Shown: positions 1 through 54,879 of the stretch, piece by piece
How positions within the stretch are numbered: position 1 is the stretch's first letter
How the letters are laid out: the number at the start of each line of letters is the position of its first letter
Assembly (NCBI RefSeq): GCF_001192795.1
Contig: NZ_DF968181.1
Span: 648,342 to 712,341 of the forward strand
From: Flexilinea flocculi
GTDB lineage: Bacteria > Chloroflexota > Anaerolineae > Anaerolineales > Anaerolineaceae
Reading direction: 5' to 3'
DNA length: 64,000 bases
Notes under the pieces: model-generated
The model's input: only the letters and a program-made list of their open reading frames with translations
What the model was told of the DNA's origin: nothing
Database searches by the model: none
Made by a program: the position numbers and the translations under genes

Positions 1-832
1 TCGCTTCAATATCAGTAAAAGTCTTTTCCAAACCACTCGCTGAATCCCACATTCCAAGTTCACGGATGCCGGGAGTGTCTATGATCATTCCGCCTGATGG
101 CAACAATATCAATTCTCGGCGCGTTGTTGTATGACGGCCTTTATCGTCACCGCGGATTTCTTGGGTATCCTGATGGTTTTTACCAAGTAGCAGATTGATC
201 AAAGTGGATTTTCCAACACCAGAGGATCCAAGCATTGCTGTTGTTACTCCTTCTTTGAGATATGGCAGAATTTTTTGATATCCGTCTTTTCCCATACTCG
301 ATGTAATCAGCACATCGGCGCCGTTTGCTGTCAGCTCAACCTCGTATTGTTTGCTCTTGACATCATCACAAAGGTCGGCTTTCGTCAGTACAATCACTGG
401 AACAGCGCCGCTGTTCCATCCGATGGAGAGGAAGCGTTCCAGGCGTCTCAAATTGAAATCATTGTTCAGGGACATGCAGATAAATAACGTATCAATATTG
501 GCAGCTACAACCTGTTCCGTGAAATTGGTTCCGGCATTTTTCCGCATGAAAACACTTTTCCTCGGCAAAATTTGATGAATGACTGCACGATTGCTGTTTT
601 CGATGCTGTTGAGCATGACGAAATCTCCTACAGCAGGGTATTCTGAAGGAGTATTAATCTGGTAACGGTACTTGCCTGAGATTTCCGCGATCTGTTCACC
701 GCATGATGTAATGACTCGATAAAACCCTTTTTCCTGTGACACGATGCGTCCGACAGAATATTCCGGATATTGGCGCATCAAGGTTTCATATCGATCGGTC
801 AGACCATATTTTGCCAGGTCGATCGTGCTCAT
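1..832 (-). CDS. rsgA: Ribosome small-subunit GTPase RsgA (3' end cut by window edge)
   Basis: Circularly permuted GTPase that helps mature and check the 30S ribosomal subunit. About 277 codons are visible. After an OB-fold-like N-terminus, the G motifs come in permuted order: TKAD (G4, residues 150-153), then the P-loop GSSGVGKS (202-209), GRHTTT (232-237) and DTPG (252-255). The order G4 before G1 is diagnostic of the RsgA/YjeQ family. The C-terminal zinc-binding domain should lie beyond position 1. The ATG at 832-830 is preceded by GAGG about 8 bases upstream, which supports this start. No neighbour in the window is co-directional and close enough to form an operon; OsmC lies 300 bp upstream on the same strand. 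The identification is secure from the motif order. Confidence 0.93.
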   Translation of the reverse strand, partial: MSTIDLAKYGLTDRYETLMRQYPEYSVGRIVSQEKGFYRVITSCGEQIAEISGKYRYQINTPSEYPAVGDFVMLNSIENSNRAVIHQILPRKSVFMRKNAGTNFTEQVVAANIDTLFICMSLNNDFNLRRLERFLSIGWNSGAVPVIVLTKADLCDDVKSKQYEVELTANGADVLITSSMGKDGYQKILPYLKEGVTTAMLGSSGVGKSTLINLLLGKNHQDTQEIRGDDKGRHTTTRRELILLPSGGMIIDTPGIRELGMWDSASGLEKTFTDIEA

Positions 833-1132
833 AAAATGGCCTCGTTTAGGAGTGAGTCTGAAATTTGTTCGATGTGGTTAATGATAATAATCGTCATCAT
901 TTTTTTTCTCAAAATAATCGTAAAAAATAGAAACAAAAGCAATTTTTTCCCCAAATGTCGAATCGCTGGTCAATAGTTCGATTCGTAGAAACGGAAGAAA
1001 ACCGAGATTTTCGATTTTCTTCCGTTTGAGTATCTTATGAATTATGGCAACGATACATAAAATCTGATCGATGCTTTGAAAAAGAGTTCCTTGGATCTAC
1101 AACAAGAATCCAGATTGGAAAACAGCTTCCCC
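833..1132. other. Intergenic stretch with degenerate family 1 arm and a stem-loop
   Basis: The 300 bp between rsgA and the OsmC gene contain no convincing ORF. Around 925-970 there is a decayed family 1 repeat half, ending in a TCGAATCGCTGG-like outer arm. A perfect 13-bp inverted repeat follows at 989-1001/1015-1027 (AAACGGAAGAAAA and complement). It lies just beyond the OsmC stop on the minus strand and may act as its transcription end, although it has no strong U-tract. Confidence 0.5.
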
Positions 1133-1552
1133 TTATACGATTAGTTTTGCAGAAAGGTTAATTTCTACTGCAGAAAGCGCCTTGGATACTGGACAATCCT
1201 TCTTTGCAGATTCAGCTAATTTGAGGAATTCAGATTCCTGAATACCTGGGACAATTCCTTCTGTCGTTAAATCAATCGCTGCGATAATCGGACCGGCTTT
1301 TAAATGCACCTTTGCAGTAGTATGCAGTTGTTTTGGCGGAAAACCGGCATCTGTGAGTAATGCAGATAGGAACATGGTAAAACAGCCTGCATGAGCTGCG
1401 CCGATCAATTCTTCCGGATTCGTTCCCGGCGCTTCTTCAAATCGGGAAGAAAATGAATAGGAACCTTCATAAGCTCCGCTTCCTAATTTCATCGTTCCCC
1501 GACCTTCTTTTAATGTGCCTTTCCATTCGGCATGGGCAGATCTCACGGTCAT
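1133..1552 (-). CDS. OsmC-family organic hydroperoxide reductase
   Basis: Small thiol peroxidase of the OsmC/Ohr superfamily, 139 residues, the usual length. The two reactive cysteines are at C57 (in AHAGCF) and C120 (in KKDCPVSK). The C-x-x-S spacing after the second Cys and the AHAGCF context favour the OsmC subgroup over Ohr. It probably reduces organic peroxides in the cytoplasm, a common defence in anaerobes exposed to oxygen. The start is well defined: GAAGGAG lies 6-8 bases upstream of the ATG at 1552. It is monocistronic, flanked downstream by a stem-loop and upstream by a repeat-filled gap. The substrate cannot be read from sequence. Confidence 0.9.
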   Translation of the reverse strand: MTVRSAHAEWKGTLKEGRGTMKLGSGAYEGSYSFSSRFEEAPGTNPEELIGAAHAGCFTMFLSALLTDAGFPPKQLHTTAKVHLKAGPIIAAIDLTTEGIVPGIQESEFLKLAESAKKDCPVSKALSAVEINLSAKLIV

Positions 1553-1675
1553 GATAATCTCCTTCTTTCAATAATTAGAAAAGTGTACTAAGCAATTCAA
1601 TATGAGCAAAATTACAATAGAGGCAATCGTACTCAATTGATTAGCAGCGATCCGTAATACGGAATTAATTCTTTA

Positions 1676-1770
1676 TTGTTCTTATGCTTTTACGTGAAGT
1701 AAAAAAAGCATAAGAACAACCTATTTCCATCCTTTATTCGATAGAGCAATCCATATTTTGAATTGCTGAA
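1676..1770. repeat. Family 1 hairpin element (copy a)
   Basis: Perfect 16-bp stem: TTGTTCTTATGCTTTT at 1676-1691 pairs with 1704-1719, around a 12-base loop containing ACGTGAAGT. The right outer arm follows (CCATATTTTGAATTGCTGAA, about 1751-1770). It lies between the OsmC gene and the liv operon. Confidence 0.75.
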
Positions 1771-1897
1771 GCGGACTGCTTTCTATTGATTTAATAAGTT
1801 TATCATTGGAACCGAAATTAATTGCAATTGCAATTCGAAATGATCTGCTTCCCGAAAAATGTACTGTTACGAATGTTAGTCGCATAGAAGATTAGGA

Positions 1898-1999
1898 GGA
1901 GCGACGACATACGGGAACGGTATACAGAAGAACAAATCATCCGCACACTCAAAGCCCATAAAAGGAGGAGAAGTATCCGGGAACTTTGCCGTGAATAGT
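1898..1999 (+). pseudogene. Remnant of an IS3-type OrfA transposase N-terminus
   Basis: The frame at 1913-1996 reads RERYTEEQII, then RTLKAHKRRR, then SIRELCRE, and ends at TAG 1997-1999. YTEEQII-x-LK followed about ten residues later by ELCRE is the typical N-terminal helix-turn-helix of IS3-group OrfA proteins. The normal continuation (HGIS..TFY.WK) is absent, the frame breaks, and no OrfB or terminal repeats are seen. AGGAGG precedes it at 1895-1900 but no ATG is in place. This is an old, non-functional fragment in the 900-bp gap upstream of livJ. Confidence 0.5.
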
Positions 2000-2095
2000 C
2001 CCATTGTCCTTGAATATTCCGCGTGAGATTGAATCCCGTAGCGGCGGGAAATTAGCTGTTTATCTAATCTATCGTCAGGGTCTCGTATCGTAAGG

Positions 2096-2155
2096 GCGAA
2101 GCATCCGACATGAGCGATTCATGGTGAAGATCGAGACGGTTGTCGGACGCTTCGC
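2096..2155. repeat. Isolated inverted repeat with GCGAAGCATCCGAC arms
   Basis: GCGAAGCATCCGAC at 2096-2109 pairs with GTCGGACGCTTCGC at 2142-2155, with one G/T-type mismatch over 14 bp and a 32-base loop. It belongs to neither main repeat family here. The rest of the gap 1553-2342 holds only the copy a repeat and the transposase remnant. Confidence 0.5.
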
Positions 2156-2342
2156 CTCTGCAACGGATGTAATGTTGGAATGGCAAACAACAGGGTGATT
2201 CTATGAAAAAAAGTACCGTAAGTGTTTAATGCAAAAAAAAAAGTGAAAAAACGATCGCTACCCCCAAACAGGTTTCCCTTTTTCTTTATTCCAAGTTGCA
2301 TTTACTATTTCTGTTCACGCAAATTTCGAATTGATGAAAATA

Positions 2343-2371
2343 TTGTCAATCCTGATCTTGCATGCTATAAT
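2343..2371 (+). promoter_or_regulatory. Housekeeping-type promoter of livJ
   Basis: TTGTCA at 2343-2348 and a consensus TATAAT at 2366-2371 are separated by exactly 17 bp. The predicted start near 2378 leaves a leader of roughly 78 bases before the livJ ATG. It is the best-formed promoter in the window. Confidence 0.7.
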
Positions 2372-2455
2372 TTTTCAGGTACAAACACATCAATGCGCTA
2401 TATTGTTTTAAACGCCAGACGGTTCATCGTTTTGGCATAAATATAAGGGAGGAAT

Positions 2456-3616
2456 ATGAAAAAGTTTGCTTCATTATTTGTTCTTGTAGTTGTTTTTGCA
2501 GCAATGCTGACTGGCTTTGCATACGCAGCGGATGACGAGATTACCATCGGCGTTTTTGAACCTGTAACTGGCGAAAACGGCGGTGGCGGTTTCCAGGAAG
2601 TCCTTGGTATCCGCTATGCAAATGAAGTCTATCCAACAGTCGAAGTCGGTGGAAAGACCTATAACATAAAGCTTTTTGAGGTTGACAACAAGAGTGATAA
2701 GACTGAAGCAGTAACCGCTGCTCAAAACCTCGTTAGCCAGGGTGTTAAGGCAGTAGTTGGTTCCTATGGTTCCGGTGTTTCGATTGCTGCGGGTGAAATC
2801 TTTGCTGAAGCACAGATTCCTGCGATGGGCGCATCTTGTACCAATCCTCAGGTTACATTAGGCAATGATTACTATTTCCGCGTTGCTTTCCTGGATCCTT
2901 TCCAGGGTACTGTTATGGCAAACTATGCATTTCAGAATGGCGCCAAGACTGCAGCTGTCATTACACAACTCGGCGATGATTATTCCTCAGGTTTGGGAAG
3001 CTTCTTTGTGAACGCGTTTACAAAATTGGCTGGTGAAGGTTCTGTCGTTTCTCAGGAACAATTCCAGACCAATCAAACCGATTTCAAGGCAATCCTTACC
3101 AACGTAAAAGCAGCCAATCCGGATGTAATTTTTGCTCCATCATCCATTGCCACAGCTCCGTTGATTATCAAACAGGCTCGTGAATTAGGAATTACCGCAA
3201 AAATTATGGGTGGCGATACATGGGAAAATGTGACCATTATCGAAAATGCTGGTGCAGATGCCGAAGGTATTGTTCTTTCCACATTCTTTGATGAAGCAGA
3301 TCCTGCTACCGATGAAGCGAAGAAATTCGTTCCCGGATTTAAAGAATATCTTGTCAAGAATAATCAACCAGACGTGATTCCGGCAGTTTCTGCTCTTGGA
3401 TATGATGCTTATCTGGCGATTTTAACAGCAATCAAAAATGCCGATTCAGTTGATTCAGTTGCCATTCGCGATGCATTGGTAACAACCGAATTTAACGGTG
3501 TAACTGGTCAAATTTCATTCGATGAGAATGGTGACGCTGTAAAACAACTGGCAGTAATTAAGACAGTCGAAGGCGGCGCATTCAAATTCTTGCAGACAGT
3601 GACGGTTGCAGAATAA
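2456..3616 (+). CDS. livJ: Branched-chain amino acid type ABC transporter, substrate-binding protein
   Basis: Extracytoplasmic ligand-binding protein (LIVBP/periplasmic-binding type I fold), 386 residues. It starts with a clear Sec signal (MKK, hydrophobic core, cleavage near YAA|DDE) but has no lipobox cysteine. Family hallmarks are the opening ITIGVFEPVTG, VKAVVGSYGSGVS and DAYLAILTAI. GGGAGG sits 6 bases before the ATG. It heads the liv locus: a hairpin at 3699-3723 and a 328-bp gap separate it from livHMGF, an arrangement that would allow more binding protein than permease. The ligand could be branched-chain amino acids, another amino acid or an amide; sequence alone does not decide. Confidence 0.9.
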   Translation: MKKFASLFVLVVVFAAMLTGFAYAADDEITIGVFEPVTGENGGGGFQEVLGIRYANEVYPTVEVGGKTYNIKLFEVDNKSDKTEAVTAAQNLVSQGVKAVVGSYGSGVSIAAGEIFAEAQIPAMGASCTNPQVTLGNDYYFRVAFLDPFQGTVMANYAFQNGAKTAAVITQLGDDYSSGLGSFFVNAFTKLAGEGSVVSQEQFQTNQTDFKAILTNVKAANPDVIFAPSSIATAPLIIKQARELGITAKIMGGDTWENVTIIENAGADAEGIVLSTFFDEADPATDEAKKFVPGFKEYLVKNNQPDVIPAVSALGYDAYLAILTAIKNADSVDSVAIRDALVTTEFNGVTGQISFDENGDAVKQLAVIKTVEGGAFKFLQTVTVAE

Positions 3617-3698
3617 TTTGTAACTATGTTGGGAAAATGGTGTTGCCTGGACTCGCTTTCTTTAAGTTTCTGGGCAACACAGAATTATCCAGCGAGAT

Positions 3699-40066: not shown

Positions 40067-42115
40067 ATGGATGAAAATCATGAGACAAAAAAAATCTATT
40101 CTGCAGGATATGCGGGAACTCTCACAGGAAAAAGTCATGAGATCAACGACGAATTTGTCACTTTTTATGAAAAAGAACCGGAAGGAATTGTCGGCGCTTC
40201 AAATGTATACGTCCTCTGTGATGGATTATCTGGAACCTGGCATCCGGAAGTAGCAGCAAAATTTTGCGGGAAAAAAATTATCTATTCCTATTTTAAAAGT
40301 CATGATTTTGTTGATGCGAATAAACTTGCGTTAGCAATACGAGAAGCAAATAATGAAATCTTCGCCTATGCAAAGGTGCAAGAACAGATGATGGGGGCAT
40401 CTGTCATTGCAGCTGCTGTGACCGATGGAAAAGTTGTTATCGGCAATCTTGGTGATAGCCGCGCTTATATTATTCGTAAGGGAAAAGTTTTTCAGATCAC
40501 AGAAGACCAGGAAACGATTGAAGAGAAAGTCCAAAAAGGAGAAATTTCAAATGAGGATGCTTTCTCCTTGCAGACAGGAGAAGCACGTCTCCATTCTCTG
40601 GGTTGTGAAAAAGACATTGTGATTGACGTCTATGACGGTATTGAAGTTAAACCGGACGATGTAGTATTACTTTGCAGCAAAGGATTGACTTCGTACATTG
40701 GGAAGAAAGAAATCTTGGAAGCTGTTCAGGCTGATTCTCCTCGAGAAATTGTGGATGCATTACTTGCTGTTGTCTTGAAGGCAGAGAGCAAACTGGATGC
40801 ATCTGTTGCTGCAATTAAAATTTATGATGAAGAATATATTCAGACTGTTGTACGGAATGAAGGCAGTGCTCCTGTGCTAACCGATTTAAACAGAGAAATG
40901 AAGGATTTTGAAATCGCTCAAAAATCCCGATCAAAAATTGAATTTCCAAAAATTAAGAATGTGAAAAAAGACAAACTTCCGCTTTATATTATTGGAGGGT
41001 TGTTATGTTGTCTTGTTGCAGTAGGGATCATTTGGTTTTCTTCTTCTTCATTGGGAGGTTCCTTATTTGGATCCCGAGCGACTGCGACAGATACGATTGA
41101 TCCAGTGCAATCTACTTTGGCAGCGATTCAACAAACAGCTCAGGCTGAACAGATTTTATTACTTTCTGCAACACCCACGATGACGCCTGTTCCGACCCAT
41201 ACTGAGACCGCAATCGTTACAGTTGCGTTTATTGATTTTGATACGGTCAAAGCAAGCCCAGCGGATTTTACAGAGGCATCCGTTCTTCTTGAACCTACCA
41301 GTACGGTCATCGCTCCGACAGCTGTTCCCGAAGAAAAAAAACCGATTGTGTCAGAAATCGATCAGTCAGAAATGATGTACGTGAAATCAGGCGATTTCCT
41401 TCTCGGTACCAATGATGTCTATGCTGCAGGATCTGAGGAAGGTCCTCAAGTTGAAGTATATCTGGACGCATTTTGGATGGATAAGACCGAAGTGACGAAT
41501 CGGCAGTATCTGATGTGTGTTGAAGCGGGAACTTGTGAGGAATCCCCTTATATGACCTTACGCAATTCAGATTATGCTGATTTTCCTGTGACATATGTAA
41601 GCTGGGAGAATGCAAAAACCTATTGTGAATGGGCAGGAAAACGACTTCCAACTGAAATTGAATGGGAAAAAGCGGCTCGCGGAAGCGATGGACGAATTTA
41701 TCCCTGGGGTGAAGAAGAACCAACTTTAGAAAATAAACTGGCAAATATTCCTTATTATTCAGACAGCGAAAAAAATCTTCCTCCCGGTTTATTTAAAACA
41801 GGCAGTTTCCCCGACGGTGCCAGCCCTTATGGAATTTTAGATCTGGCAGGCAATGTTTGGGAGTGGACATCTTCCTATTACGATGCAGGATATTACCAAA
41901 TGCTTAGTGAAAAAAATACAGAAGAAGGGGATGTTGTGGACAATCCTACCGGTGCTGAAACAGGTTCAGCCTATGTGATCCGTGGTGGATCAGCAGCCGA
42001 GACAGAAGTAAACAATTATCTCAGCTATACCCGCAGTACCTATCGGGGTTATGTCAACATGTCCAGCAGTTATTATATTGGATTTCGCTGTGTAATGCCT
42101 GATTCTGAAGAATAA
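40067..42115 (+). CDS. PP2C-type phosphatase fused to an extracellular formylglycine-enzyme-like domain
   Basis: 682 residues. Residues 1-~255 are a PP2C/SpoIIE-like Ser/Thr phosphatase: N27-D28, D52-G53 (LCDGLSG) and GNLGDSRAY are the metal-binding stretches. A single membrane span follows at ~303-325, then a Thr/Pro-rich linker (TPTMTPVPTHTET). Residues ~430-680 are an FGE-sulfatase (SUMF1) domain: FWMDKTEVTNRQY, PVTYVSWENAKTYC, RLPTEIEWEKAARG, GNVWEWTSS and YYIGFRC. It lacks the paired active-site Cys of true FGE in the expected C-terminal segment, so it may be a binding or structural domain. The phosphatase faces the cytoplasm and the FGE domain faces out. AGAGG precedes the ATG. Confidence 0.88.
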   Translation: MDENHETKKIYSAGYAGTLTGKSHEINDEFVTFYEKEPEGIVGASNVYVLCDGLSGTWHPEVAAKFCGKKIIYSYFKSHDFVDANKLALAIREANNEIFAYAKVQEQMMGASVIAAAVTDGKVVIGNLGDSRAYIIRKGKVFQITEDQETIEEKVQKGEISNEDAFSLQTGEARLHSLGCEKDIVIDVYDGIEVKPDDVVLLCSKGLTSYIGKKEILEAVQADSPREIVDALLAVVLKAESKLDASVAAIKIYDEEYIQTVVRNEGSAPVLTDLNREMKDFEIAQKSRSKIEFPKIKNVKKDKLPLYIIGGLLCCLVAVGIIWFSSSSLGGSLFGSRATATDTIDPVQSTLAAIQQTAQAEQILLLSATPTMTPVPTHTETAIVTVAFIDFDTVKASPADFTEASVLLEPTSTVIAPTAVPEEKKPIVSEIDQSEMMYVKSGDFLLGTNDVYAAGSEEGPQVEVYLDAFWMDKTEVTNRQYLMCVEAGTCEESPYMTLRNSDYADFPVTYVSWENAKTYCEWAGKRLPTEIEWEKAARGSDGRIYPWGEEEPTLENKLANIPYYSDSEKNLPPGLFKTGSFPDGASPYGILDLAGNVWEWTSSYYDAGYYQMLSEKNTEEGDVVDNPTGAETGSAYVIRGGSAAETEVNNYLSYTRSTYRGYVNMSSSYYIGFRCVMPDSEE

Positions 42116-42842: not shown

Positions 42843-44148
42843 GATTATGCAACCCTTTTTCTGTAAATTAGAGTCTGAAATATCCATAGATCTTTAAGAA
42901 TTCATAAACTTGCCAGTACAAAAATGTTTTCCGATCTGCCATTCTTCGCAGGTCTCCATCAGTAATGCCGAGACCAACCTGAGACAAGAAGCTTGATTTG
43001 GAAACACACCAACCACTCTTGTCCGTCTGCGAATCTCTTTATTAATCCTCTCCAGACTATTGGTTGTTCGTATCGTTCTTCGATGTTCCAATGGAAAATC
43101 AAAAACCAAAAAACCCTCAAAAAGGTTATTTTCGAGCCAAGATGAAAGCCGCGGAGCAGAAATAGCATACTTCTGGATGGCGCTCTGCAAGAGCTCTTCT
43201 GCTGTCTTTCGATCAGGAGCATTAAATATGGCTCTGATGTCTGCTGCCACTTCCAATCTCATCGATTGTCTGGGCAGATAAGCTCCGGCATTCTGTTGCA
43301 GATGGAACTGACACCGTTGCCAGGGAATACCGCCAAAAACTGCTCTTCTGGCTGCCCCTAGACCTTCATGGTCATCACTGATAATCAGCTTTATTCCGTG
43401 TAACCCTCGCTCTTTTAGACTCTTTAAAAATGCTTTCCAATGTGTTTCATGCTCACTAAGCGAAACTGAAACCCCAAGTATTTGCCGTTCGCCTTCTGGC
43501 GTAATGCCAGAGGCCACCAAAACCGCTGCATCTCTTACTTGTCCTGCTTCACGAATCTTCTCATATCGGGCATCCACAAAGAGATAGCTGATCTCTCCTA
43601 ATGGCCTTTCACGCCATTCTTGCAGTACTTCGTCCAATTGCGCTGTTGCCCGGCTGACTTGTGTGGCTGAGACCTCAATCCCACAAAGCTGTTCCGTAAT
43701 GGTTTTTACCTTCCGAGTCGATACTCCCTGTACATACATTTCAGCCAGTGTGATCGTAAGGGCTCTTTCACTTCGCAGTCCCTTTTCCAGAGCACTGGGA
43801 TAAAAACCACCCTCTCTAACCTGTGGAACTGCAAAGGTAATGTTTCCTATCCTGGTCTGTATCGTCTTCGGTTTGAAACCATTTGCATGTCCCTTGCGAT
43901 CCTTTGTGCGTTCGTACTGTTCAGCTTGTAAGTACCTTGATCTTTCTACTTGCATGGCGTTATTTATCAGCACTCGCATCATTTCTGGAATTGCTTCCAA
44001 TCCTTTTTCCGCTATTTCCTCTGTAAAGGTATAATTATTTGGGTGAGTCATTTCTAGTCTCCTTTTATGGTTTGGTTACTATAAGGATACTTCTGACTCA
44101 CCTCTTTTGTTAAGGTTCTTTATTTTACAGAAAATATGTTACACCAAC
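42843..44148 (-). mobile_element. Intact IS256-type (Mutator) insertion sequence, 1306 bp
   Basis: One transposase gene (42894-44051, minus) between imperfect 31-bp terminal inverted repeats, 42843-42873 and 44118-44148, 22 of 31 positions matching, with core TTTTCTGTAAA. It is flanked by an 8-bp direct repeat CGCGCAAA (42835-42842 and 44149-44156), the target duplication length expected for this family. The complete ends, uninterrupted transposase and identical duplications suggest a fairly recent insertion. Confidence 0.92.
42894..44051 (-). CDS. IS256-family (Mutator) transposase
   Basis: DDE transposase of 385 residues, full length for the family. The catalytic residues appear intact: D in YLFVDARYEKI, D in LIISDDHEGL and E in TTNSLERINKEIRRR. 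The C/H motif between the second and third acidic residues (WQRCQFHLQQNA) is also present. The gene sits 51 bases inside the left terminal repeat and 97 bases inside the right one. No frameshift or stop is seen, so the element could be active. Confidence 0.95.
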   Translation of the reverse strand: MTHPNNYTFTEEIAEKGLEAIPEMMRVLINNAMQVERSRYLQAEQYERTKDRKGHANGFKPKTIQTRIGNITFAVPQVREGGFYPSALEKGLRSERALTITLAEMYVQGVSTRKVKTITEQLCGIEVSATQVSRATAQLDEVLQEWRERPLGEISYLFVDARYEKIREAGQVRDAAVLVASGITPEGERQILGVSVSLSEHETHWKAFLKSLKERGLHGIKLIISDDHEGLGAARRAVFGGIPWQRCQFHLQQNAGAYLPRQSMRLEVAADIRAIFNAPDRKTAEELLQSAIQKYAISAPRLSSWLENNLFEGFLVFDFPLEHRRTIRTTNSLERINKEIRRRTRVVGVFPNQASCLRLVSALLMETCEEWQIGKHFCTGKFMNS

Positions 44149-46502: not shown

Positions 46503-49070
46503 CTATTGAATGGTAATAAAAGTATGCGCCTGGTAAAACCTTTGTGATTTCGTGATCACTGAGATACGAATATCATAAAGACCTGGGTCAAGAACTTGTA
46601 TATCCAAAGAACCGATATTCTGACTTCCTGTTTGTAAACCATTCCCGACAAAGCCTTCAATCCAGCGCTCAGGGAAAAATCCGTTGCCATGTGCGATCTG
46701 ATAAAACAGAATTTCTTCCGGAATGTGATGTTCGATGATAATGTCTGCCTTTGTCGTGCCGGCATCTGCTTTTCGAAATATCGCATAGGGCTGCGGACTA
46801 AGGATCGATAAGACCGCGTCTTCTCCATCCGTCTGTCCGACCGGATCGTACTCATTCGGGATTAATTCCACTTTGTTGATTTCTGCCCAGTTTTTTGCAA
46901 AGGCTGGGATGTTCATAAAAGTTTTTCTTATCACATTTTGGGGCGGAGTCAGTGATGTGGCAAGCAGTTGATTGTCACGATTGATCGGGACATTGACAAA
47001 TAGGTTATCCGTTTGACTAGGCTCATTGCCCGATAAAAACACTTCACTGGCTGTTTCCGGACAGGCATCGCCGGGAAGCAATCCGGAGGGAACGCAAACA
47101 ATTTGATGTGAGATATTTTCTGGAATTTCCCATCCGATAACCGGTTTTCCGGTGTGTGCGGTTTCCATGATGGTTTGCCACAAATGGATGGCGCTGAGTG
47201 AAACAATCTCAGCTGAATCTGTCTCCTGTTTTTCCCCAACCCAGACAGCAGTGGAAATTTGCGGCGTGAACCCTGCCATCCAGGTATTCTTTTCCCCATA
47301 GATTCTGCCGATTTTTGTGGCTGCCGGACGATCCAGGTAGGCAAAAGCCTGTTCTTCTTCGCCAAATATGTGATAAATGAGATAAGCCAGTCCTTTATCG
47401 AGAAGCGGGATCGATAACGCCGGCTGAAGATCTATACGCTTGCCATTTTTATCGTTAACGAACAGAACGGATATGTTTTTTGTTGTCTGATTTGACTGGG
47501 TTTGTGTCAGATTGCCTTCATTGGCAAAAGGAATCAAAGCTGCAGCCAGAGATTCAGTTGTTACAGCGCCTCCGGAAAATATCACTTGATCGGCATTGCC
47601 GACAGGCAGCTCATTGAGGCCAAATTTTTCAGCAAGATTCCATACTTTCTCAGGGCGCAGCGCAGAGAGCAATTCTGCGACTGGATCAAGCAGATCCTGC
47701 GTCATGGCTGTCCGTAACCGGACGGGACCGTGAATTTTCCGGTCCGGATTCTGGTAACCAGGCGGAACAGGCGAACCCGGGTCGATTAAATCCCATAGCA
47801 TCGAAGAAGCCGAATACCCCATATTCAGCGCTGCAAGCGCGATCCATGGAGTCAGACTGCTCCCTGGTTCATGCGGTGTAAATACATTGTGAAACGTTCT
47901 ATTTGAAGAAATGGAACTATCAGTGTCAATGGCGGCCAATAACTGTCCGGTTTTCACATCCATGACGGTAACAGAGACTGGATTGCCGGATAAAACTTTT
48001 TGTATTTCTTGATACTGCGATTCATTCAATGACGTTGAATCTGCTAAAGGGCATTGTTTATCCTGATCCTGATTCGCAATGGTCAGACACTCTAAAACCT
48101 TCTGTAACTTATAATCAAGCGTTGAAAAAATTGAAAAACCTCCTCTTTCAACTTTTTCTTGTCCAAATTTCTCATAAGCAGCCGAAAGCGATTTTTGAAT
48201 AATCGGATTGTCTTGAACCTCGTATTTTTTTTCAGGCGGCTCAAAAATTATGAAATTTATTGATCTCAAAATTTCAATTTCTTCATCGGTGAGCGCGTTA
48301 CGTCGAATTAAAGTTTCTACTTCCGAAAGATAGGAATCCTTTACGGCGCCCTTTGAATCGATTGGATTTAGCGCCGGCGCTTTGAGAATTGCGCATAAAA
48401 GAACGGATTCCGGTAATGTCAGTGATGTCGCTGACTTATTAAGATATATTTTTGCGGCTGCATCGGCGCCAAATGAGAGCTGTCCGAAATATGCGGAATT
48501 TAAGTACCAGGTCAGAATTGCTTTTCTGCCATAAATCTCCGTTATTTCACGCGCGAGTATCCGCATGAAAATTGCTTTTTGAATACCGGTTCCAAGTTGA
48601 TCATCGAAGACATCCTCGACAAGGTCTTCCGCAATCGTTACAGGATCGGGGTTCAAAAAATATTTCCATCCCGCAGACCCTGAATGGTTCCAAAAATCCG
48701 GATCACGGGAGGGAATTACAATTCGAATGAAGTCCGATGAAAAGTTTTTCCCTCCGGGTTCATCGATGGACAAATGTTCTGCCTGGATGTCAGGGTATTG
48801 CAATGACAACAGGGGATGAATTCCCTCACGATCGTAAATGACTGTTGGATTATTTGGGCTTTCAAAGCTGGCAGCAAAATTTTCAATAGATGGAAGTTTC
48901 TGACTTAAAACAGCAAATCCAATCGAAAGTGAAACAACAACACCGATAAAACAAAGTGAGAATGCGATTGCTGTCACTTTCCATAGACCACGAAATCTTC
49001 CTGGGGATTTCCCATGAAGATTCTGCCTGTGGTATCTGATGCCGATAATCTTTGAAGTTTTCATCCTCAC
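46503..49070 (-). CDS. Penicillin-binding protein 1A-like protein, probably catalytically inactive
   Basis: 855 residues with the architecture of a bifunctional class A PBP: membrane span (~32-54), glycosyltransferase GT51 region (~75-260), transpeptidase region (~310-630) and a long C-terminal Ig-like tail. The catalytic residues are replaced. The GT51 EDxxF motif reads SRDPDFWNH (R122 for Glu), and its second acidic site is lost (AILTWYLN). SxxK reads SSLT (404-407), SxN reads TQD (457-459) and KTG reads KIG (586-588). The frame is intact, which argues for a retained non-enzymatic role. The first start codon is GTG (49070) directly after a TATACT box; an ATG lies two codons on. Confidence 0.85.
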   Translation of the reverse strand: MRMKTSKIIGIRYHRQNLHGKSPGRFRGLWKVTAIAFSLCFIGVVVSLSIGFAVLSQKLPSIENFAASFESPNNPTVIYDREGIHPLLSLQYPDIQAEHLSIDEPGGKNFSSDFIRIVIPSRDPDFWNHSGSAGWKYFLNPDPVTIAEDLVEDVFDDQLGTGIQKAIFMRILAREITEIYGRKAILTWYLNSAYFGQLSFGADAAAKIYLNKSATSLTLPESVLLCAILKAPALNPIDSKGAVKDSYLSEVETLIRRNALTDEEIEILRSINFIIFEPPEKKYEVQDNPIIQKSLSAAYEKFGQEKVERGGFSIFSTLDYKLQKVLECLTIANQDQDKQCPLADSTSLNESQYQEIQKVLSGNPVSVTVMDVKTGQLLAAIDTDSSISSNRTFHNVFTPHEPGSSLTPWIALAALNMGYSASSMLWDLIDPGSPVPPGYQNPDRKIHGPVRLRTAMTQDLLDPVAELLSALRPEKVWNLAEKFGLNELPVGNADQVIFSGGAVTTESLAAALIPFANEGNLTQTQSNQTTKNISVLFVNDKNGKRIDLQPALSIPLLDKGLAYLIYHIFGEEEQAFAYLDRPAATKIGRIYGEKNTWMAGFTPQISTAVWVGEKQETDSAEIVSLSAIHLWQTIMETAHTGKPVIGWEIPENISHQIVCVPSGLLPGDACPETASEVFLSGNEPSQTDNLFVNVPINRDNQLLATSLTPPQNVIRKTFMNIPAFAKNWAEINKVELIPNEYDPVGQTDGEDAVLSILSPQPYAIFRKADAGTTKADIIIEHHIPEEILFYQIAHGNGFFPERWIEGFVGNGLQTGSQNIGSLDIQVLDPGLYDIRISVITKSQRFYQAHTFITIQ

Positions 49071-49261: not shown

Positions 49262-50071
49262 TTACAGAGTAATTGCAGCGACTATGAAAAAAAGTGTTGT
49301 TACGAAATAGGCAAAATAACGTGATTTTTTGGAAACTGAATCGAATAATTCGAGGCCATCTTGAGCACTGTTGACACGGACTTCAAGTACAGGTCCGCTT
49401 AAAAAGGCAATAATAGCACCTGCGATCAATCCGCCCAGGTGTCCCCAATTGTCAAATCTGGAGTTCATTCCAATCATCAGATTAAGAAAAATGATCAATA
49501 ATATATTATAGATGGCTCGGCGATAATTATGAAACAGTTTTTTATTCTTATAGATAAGAAAACCTTGGGCTGCGATCATTCCAAATAGAGCAGTTGAGGC
49601 GCCAACCGAGTAGGACATCGGAGAAGCCACGTAGGAAAGAACATTTCCGGCAAAACCGGTAATCAGATAGAATAATAAGAAATCTCGATGTCCATAAAAC
49701 ATTTCCAAATCTGGTCCAATTGCGTATAACGCATACATATTGAATAAGATGTGCGTAATCGAACCATGAAGGAAAATCGGTGTTATCAGCCGCCACCATT
49801 GATGATATTGATCGATGAATGGTCCAAATTTTGCGCCTGCTGCCAGTGGAATATCTGCTCCGAGAAGACTTTCTGAAAGTACCTGCGCTATGTATACAAG
49901 AACAGTAACACCTAAAATAATCCAGGTCACCACAGGTTTTCTCGGTGGAAATTTTATTGTTATTGGCTGCTGAGGCGCCGATTGATCAGATGATGGCGGA
50001 AGATCTTCACCAGGAAGATTGGTATTTTGGGCTTCATCTTCAAGATTCTGATTGTTTTGAAATTCGTTCAT
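49262..50071 (-). CDS. Rhomboid-family intramembrane serine protease
   Basis: 269 residues. After a polar Gln/Asn/Pro-rich cytoplasmic tail (~1-45) there are about six or seven membrane segments. Catalytic S159 lies in GASTALFG and H211 in NWGHLGG; oxyanion residues H102 and N111 are in LHGSITHILFNMY. This is the full active set of GlpG/YqgP-type rhomboids. The ATG at 50071 is 2 bases after the gmk stop, giving tight coupling; an earlier ATG at 50110 inside gmk would add 13 residues and seems less likely. Confidence 0.92.
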   Translation of the reverse strand: MNEFQNNQNLEDEAQNTNLPGEDLPPSSDQSAPQQPITIKFPPRKPVVTWIILGVTVLVYIAQVLSESLLGADIPLAAGAKFGPFIDQYHQWWRLITPIFLHGSITHILFNMYALYAIGPDLEMFYGHRDFLLFYLITGFAGNVLSYVASPMSYSVGASTALFGMIAAQGFLIYKNKKLFHNYRRAIYNILLIIFLNLMIGMNSRFDNWGHLGGLIAGAIIAFLSGPVLEVRVNSAQDGLELFDSVSKKSRYFAYFVTTLFFIVAAITL

Positions 50072-50073
50072 TC

Positions 50074-50700
50074 TTACTCTACAAGAATTTTTGTCCTGGT
50101 CGTTCTGCAATGTTCTGCCTGAATGATGGACAATACTTTATCGGTTGTTGTCTGCAAATCATCATTGATTACCAGATAATCAAAATTAGGAATGGTTTTC
50201 ATCTCATATTTTGCTGTTTCAATTCGATGGCATAATTCTGATTCGGAGTCACTTCCACGATTGATTAATCGATCATACCATGTCTGTGGATCAGGTGGTA
50301 CGATGAAAATGGAAATTGCGTCGGGGTAAACCTTTTTAACTTTTTCAGTTCCCTGAATATCAAGGCGCAATAGAACATCATGGTTGTCTGCTAAGCCTTT
50401 TTCCATCTCAAATTTGGGCACGCCTTTATAATCATCATATACTTGTGAATATTCAACCATTTCTTCATTTTCGATCATGGTTTGAAATTGATCTCTTGAA
50501 ATGAAGTGATAATCAACTCCGTCAACTTCTCCAGGACGAATTTTTCGAGTATTGCAGGTGACAACAAAATGAAACTGATAATCATCTCGTTTTAATAATT
50601 CTTTTATAACGGAATCTTTCCCTGCTCCGGAAGTACCAGAAAGGATAATTACAATTGGTTCAGAATCCTTAATTTTAAAAAATGGCACTGCTGCTTCCAT
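50074..50700 (-). CDS. gmk: Guanylate kinase
   Basis: Phosphorylates GMP to GDP, 208 residues. P-loop SGTSGAGKDS (21-30) has Asp after the lysine where Ser, Gly or Thr is usual, followed by Ser. Family motifs: TCNTRKIRPGEVDGVDYHFI and LRLDIQGTEKVKK (the usual LxxIDxQGA stretch), then the lid with INRGSDSESELCHRI. AAGGA precedes the ATG by 7 bases. It is transcribed with the rhomboid gene. A gmk next to unusual partners instead of rpoZ is not rare. Confidence 0.93.
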   Translation of the reverse strand: MEAAVPFFKIKDSEPIVIILSGTSGAGKDSVIKELLKRDDYQFHFVVTCNTRKIRPGEVDGVDYHFISRDQFQTMIENEEMVEYSQVYDDYKGVPKFEMEKGLADNHDVLLRLDIQGTEKVKKVYPDAISIFIVPPDPQTWYDRLINRGSDSESELCHRIETAKYEMKTIPNFDYLVINDDLQTTTDKVLSIIQAEHCRTTRTKILVE

Positions 50701-50997: not shown

Positions 50998-52044
50998 ATG
51001 AAAAATTTGGTAAGAGGACTCTTATTTGCTTTTCTTTCTCTCATCCTAATTCCAGGTGTCGTAGTTGATGCATCTAATCCTCTGGATTTTTTAACTTATG
51101 AAATAAATGACCAGACTGTAACTATCACAGGCTTTCAGGGAAATCCCGTTGATCTGGTGATTCCTTCAGAGATCGACGGATATCGTGTAGTCAGTATCGG
51201 AGATGCTGCATTTTCTTTCTGTAATAGTCTGGTCAGTATCACGATTCCTGAAGGTGTACTCCACATTGGCTCCGGAGCTTTTATGTCTTCTGAAGCATTA
51301 AAGAGCGTTGTACTTCCATCGACACTTCAGGATCTTGGTGACATGACTTTTTATGGTTGTTTCGGATTGACAAGCATCACACTTCCCGAAAATCTGAAAA
51401 AAATTGGAACGGGTACTTTTGCATATTGTTATCGATTGACCAGCTTGATCATTCCGAACAGTGTGACCAGTATAGGTGATTACGCATTTTCTCACTGCAA
51501 AGGTTTGACGAAAATCACCATTCCAGACAGCGTGACCGATATGGGGAAAGCCCCTTTCGAAGAAAGCGTCCAATTGGCTGCAATTTCAGTTTCAGTCAAT
51601 AATATCGGTTTTATTGATATCGAAGGCGTTTTATACGACCGAAAAACCGAAAAATTGATCTCATTTCCCTGCAAGAAAAATGTTACACGGTTCATGGTAC
51701 CCGAGGGTGTCAATGCTATTGGTGACCATGCCTTTGAAGGTTGTAAGATGTTGGTGGATATCGTGATACCAAATTCGGTAACGAGCATCGGCGATTCAGC
51801 TTTTGCAGATCTTGACCAGATGTATCAGGTGAAAATACCGGAAGGGGTTGCCAGTATTGGGAAAAAAGCTTTTGAATATTGCTATGGATTGACCATTATC
51901 CACATTCCGGACAGTGTAACCAGTATCGGGGGAGGCGCATTTAAAGATTGTCCGAATCTCTCCATTCGCTGTAATTCCGGATCTTATGCAGAAGAATTTG
52001 CTATAGAAAACAACATCCGATATAAAATCGTGGATGGATCATAA
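50998..52044 (+). CDS. Secreted BspA-type leucine-rich-repeat protein
   Basis: 348 residues. Signal peptide MKNLVRG with hydrophobic core to about residue 22 (cleavage near VVDA). The rest is ~11 copies of a ~23-residue LRR_5 repeat with consensus ITIPxSVTSIGxxAFxxC. A break between ~175 and 240 (FIDIEGVLYDRKTEKLISFPC) is the usual BspA island. There is no sortase motif, S-layer domain or membrane anchor, so it is probably secreted. Such proteins bind host or matrix components in many gut and sludge anaerobes. Single-gene unit. Confidence 0.88.
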   Translation: MKNLVRGLLFAFLSLILIPGVVVDASNPLDFLTYEINDQTVTITGFQGNPVDLVIPSEIDGYRVVSIGDAAFSFCNSLVSITIPEGVLHIGSGAFMSSEALKSVVLPSTLQDLGDMTFYGCFGLTSITLPENLKKIGTGTFAYCYRLTSLIIPNSVTSIGDYAFSHCKGLTKITIPDSVTDMGKAPFEESVQLAAISVSVNNIGFIDIEGVLYDRKTEKLISFPCKKNVTRFMVPEGVNAIGDHAFEGCKMLVDIVIPNSVTSIGDSAFADLDQMYQVKIPEGVASIGKKAFEYCYGLTIIHIPDSVTSIGGGAFKDCPNLSIRCNSGSYAEEFAIENNIRYKIVDGS

Positions 52045-52192: not shown

Positions 52193-53620
52193 TCAGCTCA
52201 GGATTCCTCCATCTGTCATCCGATAAAGATCAGAAAAAGCCTTCTCGATTTCAGATTCTTGAACTTTTTCTCCACTATCTTTATTATCTAATTCCCCGTT
52301 GGCCGCTTTTTCCAATGCCAGATCTTTAATGGATATTTTCCGCCGATAGGCTTCTTTTACAAGCGCTGCGCCAGCTGAATATCCGATTAAAGGATTCAGA
52401 GCAGTGACAATAATCGGATTTGCTTCAAGCCAATGAGCTGCTTTCTCGGAATTTGCCTGAATTCCTTTTACACATTTATCCGTAAATGCGTGAATGCTAC
52501 CAATCATGATTTGCTGCGCTTCAAATAAATTATGAGCGATCACGGGCATCATTACGTTTAGTTCCAGTTGTCCAGCCTGAACTGCCTGGCTGATGGTTGT
52601 ATCGCAGCCGATCACATGGAACATGGCCATATCCAGCATCTCTGCCATGACAGGGTTGATTTTCCCGGGCATGATACTGGATCCGGGTTGGAGTGCGGGA
52701 AGTATGATTTCATTCAGACCGGTTTCCGGCCCTGATGAAAGGAGACGAAAGTCATTCGCAATGCGAATAAGTGTCAGCGCTGATGTTCGTAATGCTGCAG
52801 AAAAATCTGCCATATCGGCCATCGATTGCATCCGTTCAAACAGATTTTCCGAACAACGGAATTCGATACCGGTATATCTGGAAAGTTCTCTGACCATCCG
52901 TTCATGGAATTCCGGGTGAGCATTCAGTCCGGAACCAACTGCCGTTCCGCCGATTCCCAATTCCCGAAGATCATCTGCAGCTCGTTGAATACGGATAATG
53001 TCTTTTCGGACCGCTTCTGCGTAAGCGCCAAATTCTTGTCCTAATCGGATAGGAACTGCATCCTGCAAATGTGTGCGGCCGGATTTCAGAATCGATTGAA
53101 AATCTTTTGCTTTTTCCCTTAATGCTGCTTCCAGATTTTCTAACTGATCAGTCAATTCTTTGAGTCTTAACAAACAACCAATCCGAATTGCAGTCGGAAT
53201 CACATCATTTGTCGATTGAGCCATGTTAACATGATCATTCGGGCTGATTTTAAGATTTTGAGCCAGTTGGCTGGCGCGATTTGCGATGACTTCATTCAGA
53301 TTCATATTATGGCTGGTTCCGGCACCGGCTTGAAAAGGATCAACCACAAATTGATCCGTCCATTTCCCGGATAAAATTTCATCTGCAGCCTGGCAAATGG
53401 CAGTTTTTATCTGTGGATCTAATAAACCGAGTTCGCAATTTACTGTTGCTGCTGCTTTTTTGATATACGCTGTAGATTCAATGAATGAATACCAGGGCTT
53501 TAAGCCGGATACTTGAAAATTTTCGACTGCACGCTGTGTCTGTGCTCCATATAAGGCATCAGCTGGAACTTGAACTGGACCCAGTGAATCCGACTCGATT
53601 CGAAAGCGTTTCTGGTCCAT
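52193..53620 (-). CDS. aspA: Class II fumarase/aspartase family lyase, probably aspartate ammonia-lyase
   Basis: 475 residues of the fumarase II/aspartase superfamily. Signature loop GSSIMPGKINP (about 315-325) carries the catalytic serine; the substrate motifs are SGRTHLQDAVP and STNDVIPTAIR. DPFQAGAGTSHNMNLNEVIANRA reads more like aspartases (AGAGTS-x-NMN-x-NEVIANRA) than fumarases (GSGTQSNMN-x-NEV); MPGKINPVMAEM is also aspartase-like. A fumarase cannot be excluded. It starts inside the stop of the L,D-transpeptidase gene (TAATG) with GGAGG just upstream. Confidence 0.75.
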   Translation of the reverse strand: MDQKRFRIESDSLGPVQVPADALYGAQTQRAVENFQVSGLKPWYSFIESTAYIKKAAATVNCELGLLDPQIKTAICQAADEILSGKWTDQFVVDPFQAGAGTSHNMNLNEVIANRASQLAQNLKISPNDHVNMAQSTNDVIPTAIRIGCLLRLKELTDQLENLEAALREKAKDFQSILKSGRTHLQDAVPIRLGQEFGAYAEAVRKDIIRIQRAADDLRELGIGGTAVGSGLNAHPEFHERMVRELSRYTGIEFRCSENLFERMQSMADMADFSAALRTSALTLIRIANDFRLLSSGPETGLNEIILPALQPGSSIMPGKINPVMAEMLDMAMFHVIGCDTTISQAVQAGQLELNVMMPVIAHNLFEAQQIMIGSIHAFTDKCVKGIQANSEKAAHWLEANPIIVTALNPLIGYSAGAALVKEAYRRKISIKDLALEKAANGELDNKDSGEKVQESEIEKAFSDLYRMTDGGILS

Positions 53621-54879
53621 TATGCACCTCCCTGCCCATAATAAGCCGGGTCTGTCGGGGTGTTTCCTGATGGATCATGGATATAGGTATAATCCCCAAC
53701 CTTCGCCCAATTGAAAAGCCAATGCGCATCTCCAATTGACATATTGATACAGCCATGCGATTGCTCATAACCATACCAGGCACGCCAGTACGCTCCATGG
53801 AAAGCGCGCGCCTGGTCAAAATACATCGTGAAAGGGACGTCTTCCAAATAATAGTAATCGGATTTATCTGCTTCAAAAGAGCCTGTCATATCCTCCGATT
53901 CTTTCTTTTCATAGATCTGAAAAATTCCAGGCTGTGTATAAAATGGTTTCATACCTGAAGCGATCAAAGCGGCATAAACCAGCGAATAGTTATCGTAAAC
54001 CATCAAAACCTGCTGATATAAATCAACTTCGATCCAACGTCCCCCTTTAATTTCTTCTGGCGGAGTGGTATTAAACAATGCAGCGCGAAAATGAATTCGA
54101 TCCAACCATTGGTTTTCACCAACTTGATACCAGGTTGTATCCTTCCCTTCCACGATATCGAATACTGGTAAAACATCTTCGCGATTATAGTAGACCGCTG
54201 TGTTGATTCCGCCATTGAAATCTGGTTTGATGTATGGGTTCAATCCTTCAAAAACCCATCCAAAGTATTGTGCTGGAGTGGTTTTAAAGGTTCTGCCGAG
54301 TGTGGTGTAAGACACTGCTGCAGGTGATGCCCGCAGCCAAAATCCTTTTTTTGATTGAACAAAATGTCCGTTGTCAGCATCAATCCGGTTCTGAAAAGAG
54401 ACGTAACGGATGGTTCCGCCCGCAAGGTATTCGATCGGATTTGTTCCGGCGGCTGCATCCTCATATGTAGCATATAAAGGAATAACCTCAGCGTTTTCCA
54501 CGTTTAATTTTGCATATTGATAGGGGACATTTGATAAGTCTTCATCGATTTTCCCTGCAATAAATGGCAGCGATGGGTAACTTAGGCCTTTTTTTGCCAG
54601 ATCGGTCAAATATTGTGCAGGCCCCAACGGATTGCAGATTTCAGGATCGATTGGATAGACATCCGGAAAACAAATAGCGTCTGAATTATTATTTGGATTC
54701 AAGGTTGGTTCTGCAGATGCAGTTGGACTAACTACAACAGAAGGAGTATGCTGAACAGCACCGGTTGGTTCGGCGTTGATAATTTGAGTGGTCTCTTGTG
54801 ACAAACCGGATTTAAAGGTTGTTAATATCATAAATCCGCAAAGAATGATACTTGTAAAAAAATTTTTGAAATCTTTCAT
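53620..54879 (-). CDS. L,D-transpeptidase (YkuD family), exported
   Basis: 419 residues. N-terminal hydrophobic signal or anchor (~8-24), a Thr/Pro-rich linker (~30-66), a central region of unknown fold (~80-280), then the YkuD domain (~282-415). The catalytic motif is intact: H361 (FHGAYW) and SHGCINM with C377. It makes 3-3 crosslinks or attaches proteins to peptidoglycan. The presence of an active L,D-transpeptidase in a window whose class A PBP looks dead is notable. The downstream aspartase-like gene overlaps by one base. Confidence 0.88.
   Translation of the reverse strand: MKDFKNFFTSIILCGFMILTTFKSGLSQETTQIINAEPTGAVQHTPSVVVSPTASAEPTLNPNNNSDAICFPDVYPIDPEICNPLGPAQYLTDLAKKGLSYPSLPFIAGKIDEDLSNVPYQYAKLNVENAEVIPLYATYEDAAAGTNPIEYLAGGTIRYVSFQNRIDADNGHFVQSKKGFWLRASPAAVSYTTLGRTFKTTPAQYFGWVFEGLNPYIKPDFNGGINTAVYYNREDVLPVFDIVEGKDTTWYQVGENQWLDRIHFRAALFNTTPPEEIKGGRWIEVDLYQQVLMVYDNYSLVYAALIASGMKPFYTQPGIFQIYEKKESEDMTGSFEADKSDYYYLEDVPFTMYFDQARAFHGAYWRAWYGYEQSHGCINMSIGDAHWLFNWAKVGDYTYIHDPSGNTPTDPAYYGQGGA

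Follow-up and report, generated by a model that had tools for sequence, protein, structure and literature searches.

Non-catalytic roles of PBPs have been described, in the cases that we found, for laboratory mutants of class B PBPs. According to the accessible part of the source, catalytically inactive PBP 2B of Bacillus subtilis fulfils a structural role (PMC5656894). It resembles the family reported here in that its presence matters apart from catalysis, but it is a class B division PBP with one laboratory mutation, whereas the present proteins are class A PBPs in which both domains are naturally dead (catalytic motifs lost). A partly non-catalytic division role is also described, via active-site mutants, for C. 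difficile PBP3 and SpoVD in the available portions of two studies (PMC12539705, PMC12713402); unlike the dead family, both are class B proteins with intact active sites. The class A PBP1 of C. difficile required both of its activities for growth, as stated in the accessible text of one of these studies (PMC12539705), and this counts against a non-catalytic role for a class A PBP.

Two other systems offer partial likenesses. The degenerate LytM factors EnvC, NlpD and ActS are likewise wall-enzyme homologues without catalysis that became activators of wall enzymes, but they have an unrelated M23 peptidase fold and activate amidases (PMC8360153, accessible part). LpoA and PBP1A pair a protein containing a TPR-like domain with a class A PBP, recalling the TPR module described below; however, LpoA sits in the outer membrane as a lipoprotein, and it is the C-terminal domain, not the TPR-like one, through which it stimulates an active enzyme (PMC4111904, accessible part). 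Its likeness to the TPR protein of the present family is taken here as one of domain type. The active Anaerolineae class A PBPs with SSITQQ or STITQQ motifs (e.g., L082, L086, L241-L250) share lineage, domain order and the tail behind the transpeptidase (TP) domain with the dead family, but differ in that the transpeptidase motifs and the GT51 (GT) Glu were intact in 57/57.

Here we report on a gene in a 64,000-nucleotide stretch of Flexilinea flocculi DNA, referred to as the window. If our reading is true, it represents a class A PBP family that is dead by nature in both domains, and a search of open-licence PMC (titles and abstract starts) found no such family described; a pseudoenzyme review (PMC10211241) gave no match for peptidoglycan or penicillin. 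Evolution appears to have separated the functions as an experiment would: a class A PBP persists in old lineages with both activities removed, and any non-catalytic job of a class A PBP thereby becomes directly testable.

A full-length class A PBP gene with all catalytic motifs replaced

The frame at 46503-49070 on the minus strand was open throughout (855 codons, GTG start), and open frame, Pfam matches and motif comparison identified it as a dead class A PBP gene. Hydropathy predicted one TM helix, at the N-terminus (residues 37-55; 48906..48962, minus). Behind it lay a degenerate GT51 domain (residues about 110-260; 48291..48743, minus) and a degenerate transpeptidase domain (residues about 366-640; 47151..47975, minus), both placed by profile alignment to solved PBPs and by weak Pfam matches above the gathering score, namely Transgly (PF00912) with 57.4 bits over residues 145-244 and Transpeptidase (PF00905) with 25.3 bits over residues 366-524. 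Then came the post-TP tail (residues 640-750; 46821..47153, minus), containing C659 and C670 and compared for conservation between dead and active proteins, and the C-terminal segment (residues 750-855; 46506..46823, minus), compared with relatives. Relatives such as L013, L015 and L018 carried an extra Ig-like domain (Big_7/BiPBP_C) at the C-terminus; the window protein was without one, and a Pfam search with its residues 640-855 gave no match. The order of TM anchor, GT51 and transpeptidase is the class A PBP layout, indicating descent from class A PBPs, and the window protein was nested among active orthologues in trees. The NCBIfam scores of the window protein were 162.3 bits for PBP_1a_fam (cut-off 508.75) and 125 bits for PBP_1c (cut-off 494.2); an intact class A PBP of the same genome (L034) also fell below both cut-offs (484.6 and 422.8), so that these thresholds do not separate dead from active proteins here. 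The window gene passes both Pfam cut-offs, a caution that domain matches alone can mislead annotation into naming a peptidoglycan synthase or penicillin target. A promoter and terminator scan gave signal near chance, and an AlphaFold2 model built from two sequences had a mean pLDDT of 28.8.

None of the GT51 enzyme motifs (motif-1 Glu, STITQQ, RKxxE) and none of the transpeptidase motifs (SxxK, SxN, KTG) were found in the window protein. In alignments with homologues, R122 took the position of the motif-1 Glu (48705..48707), SSLT at 404-407 that of SxxK with its Lys lost (47850..47861), and KIG at 586-588 that of KTG (47307..47315; all minus strand), just as an initial sequence-only reading had written. 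The same reading had taken TQD at 457-459 for the SxN position, two residues too early; the Ser and Asn columns held D459 and L461 (D-L-L; 47688..47696, minus). Two further GT51 motifs, absent from that reading, were also gone: D142-D149 stood at the GxSTITQQ position (48624..48647, minus; aligned with L034 and homologues) and read xxVTIAED (V144-T-I-A-E-D149), and RKxxE was replaced by KAIFM (K165-A166..M169). Profile alignments to the solved class A PBPs 7u4h and 4oon, which are sequence-profile and not structure-based, were colinear and gave the same motif columns. The orthologue in a second genome (G010), 77% identical to the window protein, carried the identical set of dead motifs, so sequencing error is unlikely. 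The main claim of the sequence-only reading, a full-length class A PBP with an intact frame and every catalytic motif replaced, was confirmed, with the gene on the minus strand.

Only two GT51 matches were present in the genome, the window gene and L034. The latter retained EDKYF, STITQQ, SAIK, SYN and KTG, so the check for another active class A PBP returned one that is intact by its motifs. Five transpeptidase-domain matches were found: L034, the window gene and three PBPs without GT51, which were classed as class B by exclusion. There were two SEDS matches.

Distribution of dead and active orthologues

Motifs were counted in 78 dead homologues of at least 826 aa, which came from the window's order, Anaerolineales, and represented eight of its families (34 from f1, 12 from f12, 8 from f5, 8 from f14, 6 from f8, 4 from f9, 4 from f13 and 2 from f6), and in 9 more dead proteins from other orders (f33, f46, f58). 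The active set comprised 57 orthologues, some cut by contig ends, of which 10 were from the order (f3, f4, f10, f11, f15) and 47 from other orders. Left out were partial or broken loci (L005, L007, L020, L073/L274, L273 and the partial active L164), very divergent ones (L055, L057, L060, L068, L071), loci L221-L240, second copies of loci, and class A paralogues of PBP1a or PBP1c type.

The SxxK Lys was present in 0/78 dead proteins of the order and 0/9 of other orders, and in 10/10 and 47/47 of the active proteins inside and outside the order; the counts for the full transpeptidase motif set were the same. The GT motif-1 Glu was found in 2/78 and 5/9 of the dead proteins and in all active ones (10/10, 47/47). 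Single motifs were not lost everywhere, with KTG intact in 7/78, the STITQQ Gln pair in 3/78 and SxN in 1/78 (L259). The five dead proteins from other orders that kept the GT Glu had lost STITQQ and RKxxE, and their GT inactivity is less certain because of the retained Glu. The first STITQQ Gln was M or V in 6/47 active proteins from other orders. No counted protein combined one complete domain with loss of the other. The window gene is not a local pseudogene, and the dead form spans eight families of the order. The notion that the dead form is universal in the order was rejected, since 10 loci in f3, f4, f10, f11 and f15 were motif-intact; the first sign against it had come from G052, whose orthologous locus scored high for GT51.

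Among the 20 loci L221-L240, the 16 that belonged to the phylum's other classes, where best matches were sampled, were intact, three from f12 were dead and one from f18 was active. Some rows from f2 and f7, partial or divergent and outside the counts, look dead, and the five divergent rows named above also lacked the motifs. These five were the most divergent members (L055 and L057 from f9, L060 and L071 from f2, L068 from f1); the KTG columns were mostly gaps in the f9 rows, and the motifs were unrecognisable in the f2 rows. An apparent intermediate, L259 (G246, f5; 754-3693), kept SxN as SYN and had lost SxxK, KTG and STITQQ. In another genome of the window's genus (G002), the orthologue L007 fell into overlapping frames of 624 and 227 aa, the result of either gene breakage or faulty assembly. 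A class A PBP profile search of 121 phylum genomes (E 0.001) gave no match in 13, eight of them from f63.

Selection and retained residues

Between the window gene and its G010 orthologue, dN was 0.137 and dS 0.951 (YN00). Three closer dead pairs with dS <0.5 gave dN/dS of 0.065/0.35, 0.086/0.494 and 0.035/0.242 (ratio 0.14-0.19), and all seven dead pairs for which YN00 gave a value had ratios of about 0.09-0.19, indicating purifying selection. For the active PBP1a, comparison of G000 with G010 gave 0.105/2.173 (YN00) and 0.112/1.414 (NG86), with dS saturated; its ratio (0.05 by YN00, 0.08 by NG86) was below the 0.14 of the dead pair from the same two genomes. The last 142 codons of the G000-G010 dead pair had the lowest dN but not the lowest ratio (YN00 0.32/0.107), because dS is low there. 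With its catalytic residues lost and the protein retained under purifying selection, the family has the sequence characters of a pseudoenzyme.

Mean pairwise identity was calculated from at most 400 pairs drawn at random in each group, and the values depend on the depth of each group. In the GT domain it was.42 among the dead proteins of the order versus.64-.72 among active orthologues, and in the TP domain.37 versus.61-.70. In the tail (640-750) the corresponding values were.50 and.50-.57, and in the segment 750-855 they were.41 and.46-.50. The nine dead proteins from other orders had.43 (GT),.40-.42 (TP),.45 (tail) and.42 (750-855), and a smaller set of 45 dead and 47 active proteins showed the same direction of regional conservation. 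In the post-TP tail, conservation roughly equals that of active orthologues, while the GT and TP domains are relaxed.

By residue count, the pairs C328...C340 (48051..48089, minus) and C659/C670 were each kept in 87/87 dead proteins. Both pairs also occurred in all 10 active proteins of the order, and in 17/47 (C328/C340) and 40/47 (C659/C670) of the other active orthologues. P75 (74/78), W426 (70/78) and D459 (67/78) characterised the dead order clade; of these, P75 and D459 occurred in 0/10 active proteins of the order. C340 and W647 had been candidates for residues specific to dead proteins and were dropped; both were present in 10/10 active proteins of the order, and C340 also in 17/47 others.

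Probable function and alternatives

We consider it rather probable that the protein is a non-catalytic pseudoenzyme, derived from a bifunctional class A PBP, that acts as a scaffold or allosteric regulator of peptidoglycan synthesis. As an inert, membrane-seated copy of a peptidoglycan synthase, it would act by binding the real machinery (the active class A PBP, SEDS-class B PBP pairs, or both), with the post-TP tail probably carrying the retained interaction. We infer the partner and the direction of regulation; loss, retention, selection and genomic pairing are seen in the genomes themselves. Of the non-enzymatic roles that the sequence-only reading had proposed, retention as such is well supported because of the conservation across eight families, dN/dS well below 1, the invariant Cys pairs and the separate intact class A PBP; the beta-lactam decoy that it had also named is disfavoured.

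An unlikely alternative is a ligand sensor, in which the dead GT groove or TP cleft would bind lipid II, stem peptide or glycan, without turning it over, and signal the state of the wall to a partner, for instance the TPR protein. The cleft is partly kept in the dead proteins of the order: the KTG Lys was found in 63/78 (Thr in 9/78) and the KTG Gly in 69/78, and the new Asp at the SxN Ser (67/78) occurred together with the Lys in 61/78, both being missing in 9/78. From this pairing we infer that a D459-K586 salt bridge may close the old transpeptidase cleft. However, the GT and TP domains relaxed the most, the opposite of what ligand binding predicts, and the KTG Lys was not among the residues listed for the nine dead proteins from other orders (f33, f46, f58).

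It is improbable that enzymatic activity was kept or evolved with other residues, such as the D459/K586 pair. The frequency of that pair would suit such an activity, and residual GT activity is least excluded in the proteins that hold the motif-1 Glu (five of nine from other orders, two of 78 from the order). But D459 was missing from 11/78 and K586 from 15/78, and the newly conserved positions in the comparison of 45 dead and 47 active proteins did not, on our reading, suggest a new catalytic set. That the gene is an early pseudogene or has lost all function is very improbable: the gene was not found in several genera, the G002 copy is split in two frames, and the GT and TP domains diverge faster than in active orthologues, but the long open frames in eight families, the dN/dS of the dead pairs and the invariant cysteines strongly disfavour relaxed decay. 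In PBPs, acylation by a beta-lactam needs the Ser nucleophile with its Lys, and a decoy titrating the antibiotic, which would have the fold of a penicillin target in its favour, is barely credible with Ser at the nucleophile position in 44/78 dead proteins and the partner Lys in 0/78.

Number of inactivations

In the 58-row tree, the 29 dead members of the order formed one clade (98, starred), and together with the dead f33/f58 rows another (95, starred). A clade of their own (97, starred) was made up of the nine active rows from the order, which grouped with the dead rows of the order and f33/f58 with a support of 84, not starred. The dead f46 rows (99) lay inside f46 (99), beside active f46 members, and two inactivations were needed on this tree. 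In AU tests, for which the groups had been named after the tree had been inspected, a single origin gave p 0.06 with 29 rows including the in-order actives and p 0.233 with 27 rows; uniting the dead rows of the order and of f46 gave p 0.127 and 0.0836, and all dead rows without L134 and L003 gave p 0.039. The fewest dead/active changes were three in an earlier tree and in the 29-row mixture-model tree, and two in the 27-row, 58-row and 29-row simple-model trees. Four subsets required 2, 2, 1 and 3 changes; the single change came from the subset without f46 rows, in which the dead rows of the order and f33/f58 formed one group with a support of only 26. In the 27-row tree the f46 row L134 fell beside the dead rows of the order and not with f46; in the 58-row tree the window's genus was on a very long branch. 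On these trees two inactivations are favoured, a single origin of the dead form is not rejected (p 0.06), and three inactivations are possible. The position of f33/f58, at odds with the taxonomy codes, may be due to long branches, gene transfer or ancient paralogy.

Gene neighbourhood and a candidate TPR partner

Seven loci of the window's genus were compared (the window, L033 and L181-L185). A rhomboid protease gene (49262..50110, minus) was upstream and co-directional in 7/7, and a guanylate kinase gene (50074..50700, minus) was upstream in 6/7; on the other flank of the window gene were convergent panE-like and fmt genes. A UppP-type gene was directly upstream in three of the seven (L181, L182, L185), and that of L181, the sole one of the three checked with Pfam, matched BacA with 282.9 bits.

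Of nine other loci of the window's family (f1), eight had directly upstream a gene whose product, 603-647 aa long, is a TPR protein with a single predicted TM helix, L192 being the exception. Among 85 genomes of this family, both genes were found in 36, the TPR gene only in 4, the PBP gene only in 15 (six of them in the window's genus) and neither in 30; PBP-positive here means by score, and 34 family members were motif-checked. The two genes were on the same strand and within 200 bp in 32 of the 36 genomes holding both. Fisher's test of co-occurrence gave p 6e-8, a value that treats related genomes as independent and so overstates the evidence. The TPR partner was found in 0/8 genomes of the window's genus, and this TPR gene was directly upstream in none of 20 loci from other orders. 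In most of the window's family, the likely partner of the dead PBP would be this TPR membrane protein. A more specific account is tentative and rather doubtful: that a class A PBP became, probably on two or more occasions, a dedicated non-enzymatic part of wall synthesis, with a two-gene TPR module in the window's family, a working tail and a cleft closed by D459 and K586.

Neither the dead PBP nor the TPR protein was matched at the cut-offs in 28 genomes of genera g11, g16, g17 and g155 (f1), indicating that the dead PBP gene is dispensable somewhere. The 13 g16 genomes without either gene were 1.7-2.4 Mb in size. Of the two remaining genomes with neither gene, G011 had a PBP fragment (L020) below the cut-off.

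The L,D-transpeptidase nearby (53620-54879), which the sequence-only reading had called intact, does keep its SHGC motif. Its cluster lay near the dead PBP gene in 6/7 loci of the genus and 0/35 other loci compared, so it explains nothing across the family. The window also encoded a protein of 682 aa that matched PP2C-like phosphatase and FGE-sulfatase domains (40067-42115, plus), a Mutator-family transposase (42894-44051, minus) and a BspA-type leucine-rich-repeat protein of 348 aa (50998-52044, plus).
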